Shown here in pieces: positions 8,711-14,055 of a stretch of 64,000 bases of DNA (its first letter is position 1; each line of letters begins with the position of its first letter). The stretch comes from Paracoccus fistulariae. Its GTDB lineage: Bacteria > Pseudomonadota > Alphaproteobacteria > Rhodobacterales > Rhodobacteraceae. Made by a program: the position numbers and the translations under genes. The notes under the pieces were generated by a model that saw only the letters and a list, made by a program, of their open reading frames with translations, was not told the origin of the DNA and searched no databases. The stretch spans positions 2,912,501 to 2,976,500 of the forward strand of contig NZ_CP067136.1 in NCBI RefSeq assembly GCF_028553785.1, in the 5' to 3' direction.

Positions 8711-9741
8711 CGCCAGCCGCAGTGCCCGCGAATCACCCGAAAATTCCCGACGCAAAAACCGGAATCCTGATCGCCAATCTGGGCACGCCCGATGGTTATG
8801 ATTACTGGTCAATGCGCCGCTATCTGAACGAATTCCTGTCGGATAAGCGGGTGATCGATCTGCCGTCCTGGAAATGGCAGCCGATCCTGCAGGGCATTAT
8901 CCTGACCAAGCGGCCCTTCAGTTCAGGCGAGAATTACAAGCTGATCTGGAATGAGGAAAAGGGCGAAAGCCCCCTGATGACGATCACCCGCGATCAGACC
9001 AAGGCGCTGCGCGCCCGCGCCGCACAGGAATGGGGCGATCAGGTGATGGTCGATTTCTGCATGCGCTATGGCAACCCCTCGACCGAGGAGGTGCTGGAGC
9101 GCATGGTCAAGGCCGGTTGCCGCCGCATCGTCTTTGTGCCGCTCTATCCGCAATATGCGGGCGCGACCTCGGCCACAGCGAATGACCAGCTGTACCGGGC
9201 ACTGATGAAGCAGACCTGGCAACCCGCCGTGCGCACCATCGATCCCTATTTCGACCGCCCCGATTACATTGCCGCGCTGGCCGATTCCGTGCGCCGCAAG
9301 CTGGGCGACAAGACGCCGTCCAAGCTGGTTGCGTCCTATCACGGCATGCCGAAACGCTATCTGATGCAGGGCGATCCCTATCATTGCCAGTGCCAGAAAA
9401 CCTCGCGCCTGCTGAAAGAGGCGCTTGGCTTGGAAGACGGCATCATCGACACCACCTTCCAGTCAGTCTTTGGCCGCGAGGAATGGCTGCGTCCCTATAC
9501 GGTCGAACATGTGGCCGAACTGGCGAAACAGGGGCACAGCGATATCGCCGTGATCTCGCCCGCCTTCGCCTCGGACTGCATCGAGACGCTGGAAGAGATC
9601 AATGGCGAGATCCGCGAAAGCTTTGAACATGCCGGGGGCAAGGAGTTCACCTATATCCCCTGCCTGAACGACGATCCCACGCATATCGAGGTCATCATGA
9701 ATGTAGTGCGCGAAAATATCGGCGGTTGGGTCAAGGCCTAG
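8707..9741 (+). CDS. hemH: Ferrochelatase
   Basis: Ferrochelatase inserts ferrous iron into protoporphyrin IX, the last step of haem synthesis. The 344-residue product has the family segments ILIANLGTPDGYDYWSMRRY, YPQYAGATSAT, the active-site SYHGMPKRYLMQGDPYHCQC and the late SPAFASDCIETLEEI. The start ATG overlaps the preceding stop (ATGA). Haem supply fits the neighbouring cbb3 oxidase and c-type cytochrome genes functionally, though these are far away. It converges on the Lrp gene with a 4-nt overlap of coding ends. Confidence 0.97.
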   Translation: MTPAAVPANHPKIPDAKTGILIANLGTPDGYDYWSMRRYLNEFLSDKRVIDLPSWKWQPILQGIILTKRPFSSGENYKLIWNEEKGESPLMTITRDQTKALRARAAQEWGDQVMVDFCMRYGNPSTEEVLERMVKAGCRRIVFVPLYPQYAGATSATANDQLYRALMKQTWQPAVRTIDPYFDRPDYIAALADSVRRKLGDKTPSKLVASYHGMPKRYLMQGDPYHCQCQKTSRLLKEALGLEDGIIDTTFQSVFGREEWLRPYTVEHVAELAKQGHSDIAVISPAFASDCIETLEEINGEIRESFEHAGGKEFTYIPCLNDDPTHIEVIMNVVRENIGGWVKA

Positions 9742-10199
9742 ACCGGCATCGCCGTGGTATATTTCGTCTGCCGCAGCACGAAATTCGTGACCGAGCCGCG
9801 GATGATGCCCAGGGCCAGCAGGCGGCGCATGATGAAATGTTCCAGCCCCTCGGGGTCGGGCGCGACGATCTTCAGCAGGAAGTCCGAGGTTCCGGTGATC
9901 GTCGCGCATTCGATGATCTGATCCTCGACCTGCACGAAACGCTCGAATTTGGCGATCGAGGCTTCGGTATGGTCCAGCAGTTGTACCTGCACATAGGCCA
10001 TCGCATGCAGACCGACCTTGACCGGCGGCACGATGGCCACCTGCCGCGCGATATAGCCTTCGTCGATCAGCCGCCGGACCCGCCGCCATGCGGGCGAAGA
10101 GGACAGCCCGCTTTCATCGGCCAGCGCCTGCGTCGACAGTGTCGAGTCGCGTTGGAGCAGTTTCAGAAGGCGGCGGTCGGCCTCATCCAGTTTCGGCAA
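9738..10199 (-). CDS. Lrp/AsnC family regulator, probable PhhR-like activator of phhAB
   Basis: A 153-residue Lrp/AsnC protein: N-terminal helix-turn-helix (LDEADRRLLKLLQRDSTLST and SSSPAWRRVRRLIDEG) followed by a RAM ligand-binding domain (VQVQLLDHTEASIAKFE, TGTSDFLLKIVAPD). The start is a TTG at 10197-10199, preceded by AAGGAG at seven bases, which is an uncommon start codon. It is divergent from phhA, and two inverted repeats occupy the shared 117-bp intergenic region, so it most likely responds to phenylalanine or a related aromatic amino acid and regulates phhAB and itself. The regulatory target is inference from position. Confidence 0.85.
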   Translation of the reverse strand: MPKLDEADRRLLKLLQRDSTLSTQALADESGLSSSPAWRRVRRLIDEGYIARQVAIVPPVKVGLHAMAYVQVQLLDHTEASIAKFERFVQVEDQIIECATITGTSDFLLKIVAPDPEGLEHFIMRRLLALGIIRGSVTNFVLRQTKYTTAMPV

Positions 10200-10224
10200 G
10201 ATTTTTCTCCTTATGTGGCATATT

Positions 10225-10239
10225 AGGCATGAAATGCCT
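10225..10239. promoter_or_regulatory. Inverted repeat (putative Lrp operator 1)
   Basis: AGGCAT and ATGCCT face each other across three bases in the Lrp-phhA divergent intergenic region, close to the TTG start of the regulator. This position suits autoregulation. Confidence 0.5.
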
Positions 10240-10252
10240 GATTATCCGCGTT

Positions 10253-10270
10253 TTGCCACCTCTGTGGCAA
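10253..10270. promoter_or_regulatory. Inverted repeat upstream of the phhA -35 region (putative Lrp operator 2)
   Basis: TTGCCAC and GTGGCAA form a perfect 7-bp inverted repeat around four bases. It ends about 20 bp upstream of a TATAAT -10 box (10291-10296) that has no good -35 hexamer, as expected for an activator-dependent promoter. A partial copy, GTGGCA, occurs at 10215-10220. Confidence 0.55.
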
Positions 10271-10290
10271 GAAATACCTTCCAGTTCAGG

Positions 10291-10296
10291 TATAAT
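10291..10296 (+). promoter_or_regulatory. Putative phhA -10 box
   Basis: A consensus TATAAT lies 21 bp before the phhA start codon, with GGGAGGAG as ribosome binding site in between. The -35 position is poor, which points to dependence on the neighbouring regulator. Confidence 0.5.
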
Positions 10297-10316
10297 ATTC
10301 GCGGGAGGAGCAAGAC

Positions 10317-11108
10317 ATGCCTAAATCGACCGAATATGAAGCCAAGACCGCCGATGCTGACGGCTTCATCGCCTATGATGCCGAGGAAAACGGGGTCTGG
10401 AACGACCTGATCACGCGCCAGTTGCCCGCCGTGGACAAGCATATGGCCCAGCCCTATCTGAAGGGGTTGCAGCTTCTTGAGATGCCGACCGACCGGGTGC
10501 CGCAATGCCCCGATATCTCGGCAAAGCTGGGTGCGCTGACGGGCTGGAAGGTCGAGCCGGTGCCCGCCCTGATCGGCTTTGGAAAATTTTTCGGCATGCT
10601 GGCGGACCGCACCTTCCCGGCGGCCAGCTTCATCCGCAAGCGCAAGCATTTCGATTATATCGAAGAACCAGACATCTTTCACGAGATCTTCGGCCATACG
10701 CCCCTGCTGACCGATCCGGCCTTTGCCGCCTTCAGCCAGGCCATCGGCAAGGCCGGCACAGGTTGCGACAAATCCGATTACAGCTGGCTGATCCGGCTTT
10801 ACTGGTTCACCATCGAATTCGGCCTGACGCGCGAAAATGGGCAGCTGAAGGCGCTTGGATCGGGGCTGGCAAGTTCCGTGACCGAACTGCCCTGGTCGCT
10901 GTCGGACCAGCCAGAGCATCGGCCCTTCGACGTGATCGACATTCTGCGCACGCCCTATCGCATCGACATTCATCAGCCGGTTTACTTCGTGATCGATGAT
11001 CTGCAGGATCTTTTCGCGGCGGCCAAGCGCGACCTGCTGGCGGATGTGGATGAGGCCCGCAGCCTTGGCCTGCACGCGCCGAAATACCCGCCCAAGGACG
11101 CAGCATAA
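10317..11108 (+). CDS. phhA: Phenylalanine 4-monooxygenase
   Basis: This pterin-dependent, non-haem iron enzyme converts phenylalanine to tyrosine. The 263-residue bacterial form lacks the eukaryotic regulatory domain. The iron ligands His122 and His127 in FHEIFGHTPLL and Glu167 in YWFTIEFGL are visible, as is the pterin-binding region around ALIGFGKFFGMLADRTFP. GGAGGAG precedes the ATG. The pterin-recycling gene phhB follows eight bases later, and the Lrp regulator is divergent, giving a standard phenylalanine catabolic unit without the downstream homogentisate genes. Confidence 0.96.
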   Translation: MPKSTEYEAKTADADGFIAYDAEENGVWNDLITRQLPAVDKHMAQPYLKGLQLLEMPTDRVPQCPDISAKLGALTGWKVEPVPALIGFGKFFGMLADRTFPAASFIRKRKHFDYIEEPDIFHEIFGHTPLLTDPAFAAFSQAIGKAGTGCDKSDYSWLIRLYWFTIEFGLTRENGQLKALGSGLASSVTELPWSLSDQPEHRPFDVIDILRTPYRIDIHQPVYFVIDDLQDLFAAAKRDLLADVDEARSLGLHAPKYPPKDAA

Positions 11109-11118
11109 GGAGCAGATG

Positions 11119-11457
11119 ATGAGCAAGACCGATCTGGCCAGCAAGACCTGCGAACCCTGTCAGGGCGGCATTGCCGCCTATGATGCGGGCAAGGCAATGG
11201 AGATGGTGGCGCAACTGGAAGGCTGGACCTTGTCTGAAAACGCCACCGCCATCAGCCGCCGCTTTGAATTCAAGGGCTTTGCCAAGGCGGTCGAGATGGC
11301 CAATCTTTGCGCCTGGCTTGGCAACAAGCAGGGTCATCACCCCGATATCTGCTTTGGCTGGGGCTATTGTCAGGTCACCTTCACCACGCATGACGCGGGC
11401 GGGTTGACCGAAAATGACTTTATCTGCGCCGCGCATCTGGACGCGCTGGTCGCCTGA
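11119..11457 (+). CDS. phhB: Pterin-4a-carbinolamine dehydratase
   Basis: The enzyme dehydrates 4a-hydroxytetrahydropterin formed by phenylalanine hydroxylase so that the cofactor can be reduced again. The signature is complete: GHHPDICFGWGYCQVTF followed by THDAGGLTENDF. Two ATG codons stand in tandem (11116 and 11119); AAGGAG is six bases from the second, so I use that (112 residues). The N-terminus carries a short cysteine-containing extension (SKTCEPCQGG) often seen in alphaproteobacterial homologues. It shares an operon with phhA and ends at a strong terminator. Confidence 0.95.
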   Translation: MSKTDLASKTCEPCQGGIAAYDAGKAMEMVAQLEGWTLSENATAISRRFEFKGFAKAVEMANLCAWLGNKQGHHPDICFGWGYCQVTFTTHDAGGLTENDFICAAHLDALVA

Positions 11458-11464
11458 CATGCAT

Positions 11465-11497
11465 GGCCCGCCCGGAACCGGGCGGGCCGATGTTTTT
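11465..11497 (+). terminator. Intrinsic terminator after phhB
   Basis: An 11-bp perfect stem, GGCCCGCCCGG against CCGGGCGGGCC, separated by only two bases, is followed by GATGTTTTT. The T run is on the plus strand, so it ends the phhAB transcript. Confidence 0.7.
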
Positions 11498-11505
11498 GCA
11501 CGATC

Positions 11506-11991
11506 TTACGGGCGAACGGCGGTCACTTCGATTTCGACCAGCCAGTTCGGATTCACCAGCGCATCCACCACCATGGCAGAACGCGAGGGCAGATTGGGCT
11601 GATCATCCGTGCCAAAGAACTGCGTGTAGCCCGCCATGAAGCCCGAGAAATCGACCGTCTCACCTTCCGGCGCGACGAGGAAGGCCTGCATCTTGACCAC
11701 ATCGCCCATGGTCAGATCCATCCCTTCCAGCGTCGCCTTGATCGCATTCAGCACGCTGACCGTCTGGGCTTCGGTATTGCCCCACGCTTCGGGCGTTGCC
11801 GGGTCTGCGGCCTCATCCGCGACCGAGGGCACGACGCCGCTGAGATAAACCGTGGTCTTGCCGCCGGGGATCTCGACGGCCTGCGCGATGGGGAAATCCG
11901 AATTCGGGATCGGGTGCCGGATCACATCCTCTGCCGAGGCGGCCAGCGGCGCGGCCATCAATGCGGTGGCGATTGCAAATGTCTTGAACAT
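11506..11991 (-). CDS. Exported RidA family (YjgF/YER057c/UK114) protein
   Basis: RidA enzymes hydrolyse reactive enamines and imines such as 2-aminoacrylate. This 161-residue member has an N-terminal Sec signal peptide (MFKTFAIATALMAAPLAASA, cleavage near residue 20), which is unusual because classical RidA is cytoplasmic. The core is recognisable: TTVYLSGVVP, then LNAIKATLEGMDLTMGDVVK, and the active-site arginine in PSRSAMVV (Arg137) with Glu153 in VEIEVTAV. The start is the ATG at 11989-11991 behind GAGGA. It follows the cytochrome c and FAD amine oxidase genes on the same strand, so it probably removes the imine made by that oxidase in the periplasm. Confidence 0.85.
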   Translation of the reverse strand: MFKTFAIATALMAAPLAASAEDVIRHPIPNSDFPIAQAVEIPGGKTTVYLSGVVPSVADEAADPATPEAWGNTEAQTVSVLNAIKATLEGMDLTMGDVVKMQAFLVAPEGETVDFSGFMAGYTQFFGTDDQPNLPSRSAMVVDALVNPNWLVEIEVTAVRP

Positions 11992-12063
11992 GGGTGTCCT
12001 CATCCTTTGGTGAATAGCTGCCGACAGGGGTGCGTGACCCCTGCCGGAAAGGTCGCATCGCGG

Positions 12064-12453
12064 TCAGCGCGACTGCGCGACGTAATCGGCGTCGGTATCG
12101 CCTTCGTAATCATTGCCCAGATTGTGCCGGATATAATTCACCACGGCCGCGACCTGCGCATCATCCAGATAATCGCCCAGCGGCGGCATCGCCTTCTGAC
12201 CGTGGATGATGAGATAGATCGGATAGTCGGCAACCTCCAGATTGCTGTTTCCGGCCAGCGCGGGATATTCACCCGCCCCGACCGCGCCCGAGCCATCCGG
12301 CATATGGCAGCCAGAGCAGATGGCGTTATAGATCGCCTCGCCCTCGGTCTGGGGCAGTTTGGCAGAGGTGCCGCTTTGCACGAAATCCTGTGCAAAGGCC
12401 GCGCCAGACAGCGTCAGGACGGTGGCGATCATCGTCAGAGAAAGACGGTTCAT
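12064..12453 (-). CDS. Periplasmic class I c-type cytochrome
   Basis: A 129-residue cytochrome c with a Sec signal peptide ending at AAFA (residue 21). The haem attachment motif CSGCH is near residue 46, and MPPLGDYLDDAQVAAVVNYI contains the probable distal methionine ligand and the C-terminal helix. It lies three bases after the FAD amine oxidase stop codon, so it is very likely cotranscribed with it and is the natural electron acceptor for the reduced flavin. Electrons could then pass to a terminal oxidase. The exact partner is inferred from context. Confidence 0.9.
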   Translation of the reverse strand: MNRLSLTMIATVLTLSGAAFAQDFVQSGTSAKLPQTEGEAIYNAICSGCHMPDGSGAVGAGEYPALAGNSNLEVADYPIYLIIHGQKAMPPLGDYLDDAQVAAVVNYIRHNLGNDYEGDTDADYVAQSR

Positions 12454-12456
12454 GGC

Positions 12457-14055
12457 TTAGTTCCCCTCGGTTTCGGCGCCGGTGACATGGGCGTGCAGTC
12501 TTTTCACCGCATTCAGCGCGGACAGGATCGCCCCTTCCTGCCACGCAGGCAGGTCGGACATATGTTCGCCCGCCATCAGCGTGCGCTGATCCATCTTGAC
12601 GGCATCGGCGTAATTCGCCTCTCCGTCGCGCCAGATGCCATAGCAGCCCAGAACCCAGGGCACGCGATGCCAGGCAACCGAGACACCGCTGGCAAATTCA
12701 TCCCGGTATTGCGGGTGGATCTGGGCGCCGAATTCCAATGCGCGCTCGATGCGTTCCTCGGGTGCGATGGCATTGAACTGGTAGGATGCCGCGCCCCAGG
12801 AATAGCAGCCCAGCAGCACCCCCGGCCCGTCGCTGAAGAAATCGTTGGAAGGATAGGAGATCAGCGTGATCGGCAGGTCGGTATAGCTGATGCCGCCGAA
12901 AATATGTTCGTCCTGTTCCCAGAAGCGGCGCTTCATCTCCAACCCGATCTTGATCGAGCTGTCGTAATAGACGCTGTCGATGGCGGCCTGCATCCCGCCC
13001 GAGAAATTGTTCTCGATCTGGCCAAGGATCGAGAAGGGGATGGTGCAGATACAGTAATCCGCCGTGACGGTGGTTTCCTCGGTCCCGCCATCGGCGGCGA
13101 CATAGGTAGCCTCGACCCCGTCTTCGGTGCCGTTGATGCGGATGACCTTGGCGTTATAGGTGACGATATCGCCGATTTCGCGGGCGAAGGCCTGTGCGAT
13201 CATGTCCATGCCGCCGACGGGTTGAAAGATCGCCTGCTGGTGGTCGATGGTTTCCCCGACCAGCAGATCCTTCCACAGACGTCCTTTCAGGATATCGCCA
13301 AGCGAGATGATATCCGACGGTTCTGGCGCCGGATCCGTGCCGCCGCCCGGATCGACCGCCCAGCCGCGATAGATCGCGGTGGCGTCGGATTTTACATATT
13401 CCAGATTATCGTTCAGCACGCCGAAGGTCTTCAGCGATTCGACCAGCAGTTCGGCATCCTCATCCGTGACCAATTCATCCAGCTTGTCCTGATGTACCGC
13501 CTTGGCCAGCAGTTCCGAAATCTGGCCGCGGTAATCCGCCTGAATTTCGCGGAAGCGCTGCGGCTTGCCGTCAAAGGCCTGACTATTATGCAGATAGGCA
13601 TAGTAATTTTGCTGGATGAACGGCTCCAGCTTGACGCCGAAGCGCTTGCAGTAATCCAGCACCGCATGGTGATCGGTCGGAATACGCCAGGGGCCGCCAT
13701 TCAGGTAGTTCCCCTCGCTGAACTGGACGTCCTGTTTGTAGCCGCCCAGTTCGGTATAGCTGTCGCCGCCACGCAGCGTCCAGCAGCGCCCGCCCGCCTT
13801 TTCGCGATATTCAAGGATCTGCACCTTGTAGCCCGCCTTGCCCAATTCATAGGCGGCGGTCATCCCTGCCAGACCCGCACCAAGGATCAGAACCGAGGCG
13901 CCATTGCCGTCGCCTTCAAGTTCAAGCGGCCCCTCATAGGACGAGCTTCCCGCATAGCCCATGCCCGCCATCGCGGTATACATGGCTGAAGCCCCCGCCG
14001 CATAGCCGACCATGGTCAGCAAATCGCGCCGCGTCATTCCTGCTGTGTGTTCCAT
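12457..14055 (-). CDS. Tat-exported flavin amine oxidase / L-amino acid dehydrogenase-like protein
   Basis: A 532-residue flavoprotein of the amine oxidase family. The N-terminus carries a twin-arginine signal (MTRRDLLTMVGYAAGASA), so it is folded with FAD before export. The FAD dinucleotide motif VLILGAGLAGMTAAYELGKA starts near residue 54, followed by GGRCWTLRGG; the C-terminal FAD-contact region is GEHMSDLPAWQEGAILSA. The family oxidises L-amino acids or amines to imines. The adjacent cytochrome c suggests dehydrogenase rather than oxygen-consuming oxidase activity, and an exported RidA homologue follows. GGGAG precedes the ATG. Substrate is unknown. Confidence 0.88.
   Translation of the reverse strand: MEHTAGMTRRDLLTMVGYAAGASAMYTAMAGMGYAGSSSYEGPLELEGDGNGASVLILGAGLAGMTAAYELGKAGYKVQILEYREKAGGRCWTLRGGDSYTELGGYKQDVQFSEGNYLNGGPWRIPTDHHAVLDYCKRFGVKLEPFIQQNYYAYLHNSQAFDGKPQRFREIQADYRGQISELLAKAVHQDKLDELVTDEDAELLVESLKTFGVLNDNLEYVKSDATAIYRGWAVDPGGGTDPAPEPSDIISLGDILKGRLWKDLLVGETIDHQQAIFQPVGGMDMIAQAFAREIGDIVTYNAKVIRINGTEDGVEATYVAADGGTEETTVTADYCICTIPFSILGQIENNFSGGMQAAIDSVYYDSSIKIGLEMKRRFWEQDEHIFGGISYTDLPITLISYPSNDFFSDGPGVLLGCYSWGAASYQFNAIAPEERIERALEFGAQIHPQYRDEFASGVSVAWHRVPWVLGCYGIWRDGEANYADAVKMDQRTLMAGEHMSDLPAWQEGAILSALNAVKRLHAHVTGAETEGN

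Follow-up and report, generated by a model that had tools for sequence, protein, structure and literature searches.

A probable periplasmic L-amino-acid dehydrogenase system with its own cytochrome c and an exported Rid3-like protein in Paracoccus fistulariae

Three neighboring genes in a 64,000-nucleotide stretch of the Paracoccus fistulariae genome (contig NZ_CP067136.1; hereafter the window, with positions counted from its first letter) raise the question of what an exported flavoenzyme, an exported cytochrome c and an exported Rid protein do together, and in particular of which substrate the flavin oxidizes and where the electrons go. The original prediction for this DNA held that the flavin oxidizes an amine or amino acid to an imine, that the electrons are passed to the cytochrome and that the imine is hydrolyzed by the Rid protein, a chemistry that we find plausible. 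The genes (referred to here as AO, CYC and RID) and the features next to them are as follows.

12457..14055 (read 14055-12457), minus strand: AO, flavin-containing amine oxidoreductase, 532 residues, from the ORF list
12064..12453 (read 12453-12064), minus strand: CYC, c-type cytochrome, 129 residues, from the ORF list
11506..12003 (read 12003-11506), minus strand: RID, Rid protein, 165 residues, or 161 if translated from M5 at 11991
9738-11457: genes for an Lrp/AsnC regulator, for phenylalanine 4-hydroxylase (phhA) and for pterin dehydratase (phhB), adjacent to the trio; phhA and phhB are convergent with it
11464..11489, plus strand: GC-rich terminator-like hairpin of 11 pairs, a pattern match only, in the gap between the convergent RID and pterin dehydratase genes

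The gaps between the frames, by their ORF coordinates, are 3 bases (AO to CYC) and 60 bases (CYC to RID), confirming the coordinates and 3-base spacing first described for three consecutive same-strand genes with export signals. The predicted content of a Tat-type FAD enzyme, a c-type cytochrome and a Rid protein was likewise right, as seen from the Pfam matches of AO (PF01593; E 8e-55, 187 bits), CYC (PF13442, E 6e-15, and also PF00034) and RID (PF01042; E 1e-15) together with their N-termini. Judged by eye, AO begins with a twin-arginine signal (MEHTAGMTRRDLLTMVG, with the twin arginines at R9R10), and CYC (MNRLSLTMIATVLTLSGAAFAQ) and RID (MRTPMFKTFAIATALMAAPLAASAED) begin with Sec-like signals. 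Between 11300 and 14400, 3 terminator-like sites were observed against 2.3 expected from shuffled sequences, and no promoter-like site was found, with 1.1 expected from the shuffles.

We favor, with a probability of about 0.7, the reading that the trio is a periplasmic L-amino-acid dehydrogenase system with its own cytochrome feeding respiration, orthologous to the lao-cccA-ridA cluster of Gluconacetobacter diazotrophicus. It is drawn from gene order, signal-like N-termini, protein families, conserved catalytic residues and wide conservation. AO would be exported by the Tat pathway with its FAD and would oxidize an L-amino acid, probably an aromatic one among others, to the 2-imino acid; the reduced flavin would pass its electrons to the cytochrome c of the operon and on to the respiratory chain, with no H2O2 being made; and the exported, Rid3-like RID would hydrolyze the imino acid to the 2-oxo acid and ammonia before side reactions occur. 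With no need to import the amino acid, the cell would obtain electrons, ammonia and a 2-oxo acid.

This mechanism was largely anticipated in print, and the original prediction erred in stating that no three-part system of this kind had been described: the orthologous lao-cccA-ridA cluster of G. diazotrophicus PAL5 (GDI2456-2454) was reported in 2016, with cytochrome c suggested as the redox partner and RidA for the imine (PMC5053998). There, indole-acetate production is abolished in two mutants with Tn5 inserted in lao, and the mutants accumulate unconverted Trp; as one lao insertion was shown to lower all three transcripts, the roles of cccA and ridA are not separated by these experiments (PMC5053998). 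Co-transcription and a role in the conversion of Trp to indole-pyruvate are reported in that paper for G. diazotrophicus only, and the cluster is noted also in Caulobacter crescentus and Xanthomonas from OperonDB; the distribution described below is wider. A search with one published primer in 397 genomes, from the family of the genome holding locus L149 (Pararoseomonas indoligenes), gave two matches, L190 and L189, and all six qPCR primer sites of PMC5053998 are present in L190 and five in L189. The window trio has the lao-cccA-ridA gene order on one strand, homologous to the order in L190, with identities to L190 of 49% for AO (522 residues), 49% for CYC (97) and 50% for RID (150).

To define the distribution, AO was used as query against named genomes and 79 distinct loci were kept from the best 80 of 84, a set chosen by similarity to the window AO that covers close AOs and not more distant ones. 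CYC adjoins AO in 78 of the 79 loci and RID comes next in 69, on the same strand and in the same order throughout; a strict count gives 76 AO-CYC pairs and 67 trios, to which the higher figures add L146 (CYC and RID fused) and L180 (AO in two pieces), and both trio counts include L130, where RID is cut by the contig end. RID is absent from ten loci (L128, L129, L138, L152, L158, L169, L171, L172, L174 and L179), nine of which retain CYC. By our reading of record titles, 52 loci are alphaproteobacterial, 19 gammaproteobacterial and 6 betaproteobacterial; the other two are an Acidobacteria bin (no RID) and a Helicobacteraceae bin (trio). The trio is thus conserved far beyond one strain, with RID-bearing loci in alpha-, beta- and gammaproteobacteria.

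Coinheritance of the genes, proposed as a check at the outset, was also found. Among 121 genomes of the genus, AO is present in 31, RID in 29 and CYC in 30 (E 1.7e-25 or better), and all three are present in 26. AO and RID lie on one contig and strand, 400–800 bases apart, in 25 of the 26 genomes holding both; in the remaining one (G024), which has an AO of 55% identity, they are on different contigs. The Fisher p value for AO with RID, 2.7e-18, is overstated because species are not independent; the pairing itself is not chance. Three genomes hold RID without AO (G033, G260 and G291), and five of the 31 AO-bearing genomes lack RID (G006, G261, G300, G309 and G315), two of them also lacking CYC, for which contig breaks are a possible explanation. 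RID, absent from 10 of 79 loci and 5 of 31 genomes, is thus not always required. The trio is rarer across the family than in the genus: among 198 family genomes, AO was found in nine (E 1e-30) and RID in three, with CYC beside AO in six of the nine (G000, G167, G107, G125, G095 and G097) and an adjacent full trio in two (G000 and G167), the RID of G107 being on another contig.

Several loci show unusual arrangements. In each of L011, L045 and L096, a RID homologue lies in a fetched stretch of 3.4-3.5 kb that contains neither an AO nor a CYC match, and the RID of L096 plainly starts with a signal-like sequence. A single 13.6-kb stretch of Solimonas marina (L156) contains three AO, two CYC and three RID frames. 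Beside its AO-CYC pair without RID, L152 has a second AO frame with a RID frame immediately after it and no intervening cytochrome match (L152:576-2882). The AO match of L179 stops at query residue 411, with neither CYC nor RID nearby, and L182:1117-3990 is one open frame in which an OprD porin domain precedes an MFS transporter domain, either a fusion or a sequencing error.

The export signals were then compared across relatives, with frames read from stop to stop, such that the stretch scored for twin arginines or hydrophobicity may include bases before the true start. Twin arginines upstream of the flavin motif are present in 76 of the 79 AOs, and a tighter motif in 73. A strongly hydrophobic stretch precedes the core in 74 of 76 CYCs (exceptions L139 and L157) and in 67 of 69 RIDs, the exceptions being L146 (fused behind CYC) and L154 (slightly below the cut-off). 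The AO signals are less hydrophobic, with 15 of 79 above the cut-off applied to CYC and RID, a result that we count against the dehydrogenase reading, as we do the loci and genomes that lack RID, the RIDs found without AO or CYC and the scarcity of the adjacent trio in the family sample. Such a hydrophobic stretch is found in none of the five other PF01042 proteins of the P. fistulariae genome, although the upstream sequence of one is too short to be scored. The window AO and CYC combine a Tat signal with an adjacent Sec-signal cytochrome c, the combination that, in other clades, predicted cytochrome-dependent dehydrogenases (PMC12224317).

CYC contains a single heme motif (C46-x-x-C49-H50) and would be monoheme; C46, C49, H50 and M89 are kept in all 79 aligned rows, and Met89 is probably the axial ligand. 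The best solved relative of AO among the matches listed is the L-amino-acid oxidase of Rhodococcus opacus (LAAO; 2jae), with 296.8 bits over residues 53-524. K369 of AO, kept in 79 of 80 rows, aligns with a flavin-side lysine of this enzyme. Some support exists for the best placed of the alternatives, namely that AO is a genuine periplasmic L-amino-acid oxidase that uses O2, with the cytochrome working elsewhere (for example, in H2O2 removal) and RID clearing imines: the R. opacus enzyme is named an oxidase, the lysine is shared, and Tat-exported oxidases without a cytochrome gene do exist (PMC12224317). However, CYC adjoins AO in nearly every locus and is kept even in nine of the ten that have no RID, which argues against O2 as the electron acceptor, and it is the adjacent cytochrome gene that predicted dehydrogenase behavior in PMC12224317, where use of cytochrome c was biochemically shown for Tat flavin amine oxidoreductases of other clades (2025). 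An O2-dependent AO is thus unlikely, and the dehydrogenase reading is retained.

RID was first described as a RidA homologue with conserved Arg137 and Glu153. The two residues are R141 and E157 of the 165-residue frame, the earlier numbering having started from the second Met (M5, window 11991), and R141 is present as the catalytic Arg of the family (RidA Arg105) in the alignment to HI0719. Membership of the Rid family and the catalytic pair stand; the name RidA is less apt, as Rid3 is nearer. The closest solved structures are the Rid3 proteins PSPTO_3006 and PFL_1385 (PDB 9bka and 9bkc; 124 and 91 bits), followed by HI0719 at 38 bits, and TIGR00004 (40 bits) and RutC (25 bits) match only weakly; RID thus appears nearer to Rid3 than to RidA or RutC, a placement made from bit scores against solved structures. 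Both R141 and E157 are found in 69 of the 70 aligned RID rows, counting that of the window; the one without them is the truncated L130. We found no assay of any trio RID in the literature, and our literature search found no report of a Rid3 protein with a signal peptide.

A closer connection between CYC and RID is seen in locus L146 (uncultured Sulfitobacter), where the two form one open frame with one signal, adjoining AO (L146:7569-8540, plus strand). Among the matches listed for this fusion (120 of 122 clusters), 60 homologues contain both domains by profiles and 61 by the precomputed Pfam column (P0001-P0044, P0046-P0058, P0092, P0097, P0102 and P0119), a share that reflects the query and the length limits of the search rather than prevalence. 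The fusion occurs, for example, in Aquicoccus porphyridii, Yoonia sp. MH D7, Sulfitobacter sp. F26169L and Parvularcula bermudensis. The cytochrome is N-terminal to Rid in 60 of 60 fusions, 46 of which have a strong N-terminal hydrophobic stretch; an AO neighbor was seen for L146 only. The cytochrome of the P0092/P0097 group matches the cytochrome profile used here weakly (16–17 bits), so this fusion may involve another cytochrome. In a tree of 186 Rid domains, 62 of them labeled fused (counting L146 and, by the Pfam column, P0119, and excluding L130), the fewest changes between fused and separate states number 11, and the starred branches force at least three; gains are not distinguished from losses in this count, and 79 of the 182 inner branches are unresolved. 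No fusion was evident in a 394-genome family sample, in which ten genomes gave matches: four with separate CYC and RID, five with CYC alone, and the window genome with one match joined across a stop. Among the papers listed by our literature search, no title or abstract showed a cytochrome–Rid fusion; a survey of Rid fusions names Rid–Rid fusions, and the word cytochrome is absent from its main text (PMC4433059).

Two views of RID follow from these data. Tentatively, CYC and RID may form one docking unit on the flavoenzyme, with electron removal and imine hydrolysis physically coupled; if so, this would account for repeated fusion, cytochrome first, behind one export signal. In such a case, the Rid3 subfamily would gain a physiological role and Rid proteins would be working parts of a periplasmic respiratory dehydrogenase, and a natural cytochrome–Rid fusion allows the coupling to be tested directly on a single polypeptide. 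Alternatively, RID may be mainly a structural or docking subunit and not an imine hydrolase, as the fusion could also be read and as the Chlamydomonas LAAO complex illustrates with a non-catalytic beta subunit, which is called a RidA protein in PMC5053998. The latter view is quite improbable, since a purely docking role gives no reason to keep the catalytic Arg and Glu, which are present in every RID row but the one cut by a contig end. Imine hydrolysis by RID, as proposed in the dehydrogenase mechanism, remains our preferred assignment.

The substrate was addressed through the active site of AO. The carboxylate-binding pair of R. opacus LAAO, which we take to be Arg84 and Tyr371, aligns with R124 and Y418 of AO; the chain positions found in the alignment are 83 and 370 (the latter counted by hand), each one below these numbers. 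R124 is kept in 80 of 80 AO rows; Y418 is kept in 78, and the remaining two rows are gapped at that position. AO thus combines a PF01593 flavin enzyme with the carboxylate-binding Arg and Tyr of the L-amino-acid oxidase family, and these conserved residues, along with the nearest solved relative, suggest that it belongs with the L-amino-acid oxidases and acts on amino acids rather than amines. Its original description as an amine oxidase is correct as to flavin family and too broad as a label, given that its active-site residues are those of L-amino-acid oxidases. That the substrates of AO are instead amines or polyamines, as for NicA2, Pnao and putrescine oxidase, is very unlikely: PF01593 is a general amine oxidoreductase model and the cytochrome partnership was first shown with amine substrates (PMC12224317), but putrescine and monoamine oxidases reach at most 46 bits among the matches listed (60 of 101) against 296.8 for LAAO, the Arg and Tyr are present in every row with a letter there, and it was Trp that built up in the orthologous G. 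diazotrophicus mutants (PMC5053998). Our literature search found no kinetics for the AO clade.

Neighboring genes were compared across the 79 loci (up to 6 kb on each side, E 1e-8). The adjacent phhA and phhB genes were considered as a substrate clue and taken instead as synteny, because the only loci that share them are two close relatives, L108 with both genes and L107 with phhB alone. A 4-hydroxyphenylpyruvate dioxygenase gene, a family call made on one cluster member, lies upstream of AO in six loci, all Nitratireductor (L122, L123, L125, L128, L129 and L138), and these loci also carry, upstream of their trio or AO-CYC pair, a divergent regulator of the Lrp type. The neighbors thus hint weakly at aromatic amino acids, which, mainly from the G. 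diazotrophicus result (PMC5053998), are our best guess for the substrate of AO. A further ORF cluster, found in seven loci, mostly of Solimonas and its kin, is represented by a TonB receptor (one member scanned).

Among related systems, RidA and sometimes Rid3 genes are reported to cluster with FAD amine oxidase genes (PMC4433059), and Chlamydomonas has a pair of LAO1 and a putative RidA, in connection with which the bacterial cluster is cited (PMC10805672). PSPTO_3006 and PFL_1385, the best solved relatives of RID, are assigned to the Rid3 subfamily, two members of which are active on imines generated by L-amino-acid oxidase (PMC5619798); among the matches listed, the highest identities of these two assayed proteins to a trio RID are 51% and 48%. 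AO resembles R. opacus LAAO as a flavin enzyme alignable over 472 residues with the carboxylate Arg and Tyr, whereas 2jae is filed in the PDB as an oxidase. The dadA-dadY operon likewise pairs a non-O2 flavin dehydrogenase with an imine deaminase, but its enzyme is a membrane-bound D-amino-acid dehydrogenase, its deaminase is Rid2 and not Rid3, and the dad locus as described has no cytochrome gene (PMC9714295). NicA2/Pnao-CycN and the clades of PMC12224317 share the Tat flavoenzyme with an adjacent Sec cytochrome c, and would share the mechanism; those clades were found with a NicA2 query, whereas the window AO is nearest to L-amino-acid oxidases, and no word beginning with "rid" occurs in the main text of that paper. 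The closest counterpart is lao-cccA-ridA, alike in its three families, order, strand and Tat signal on the flavoenzyme (PMC5053998), and different in that the host here is Paracoccus and no hormone role is implied; with about half of the positions differing from L190, the substrate range may differ too. An operon known experimentally from one plant endophyte thereby appears as a widespread and little-studied one, and such operons would let bacteria obtain electrons and nitrogen by oxidizing amino acids outside the cytoplasm.
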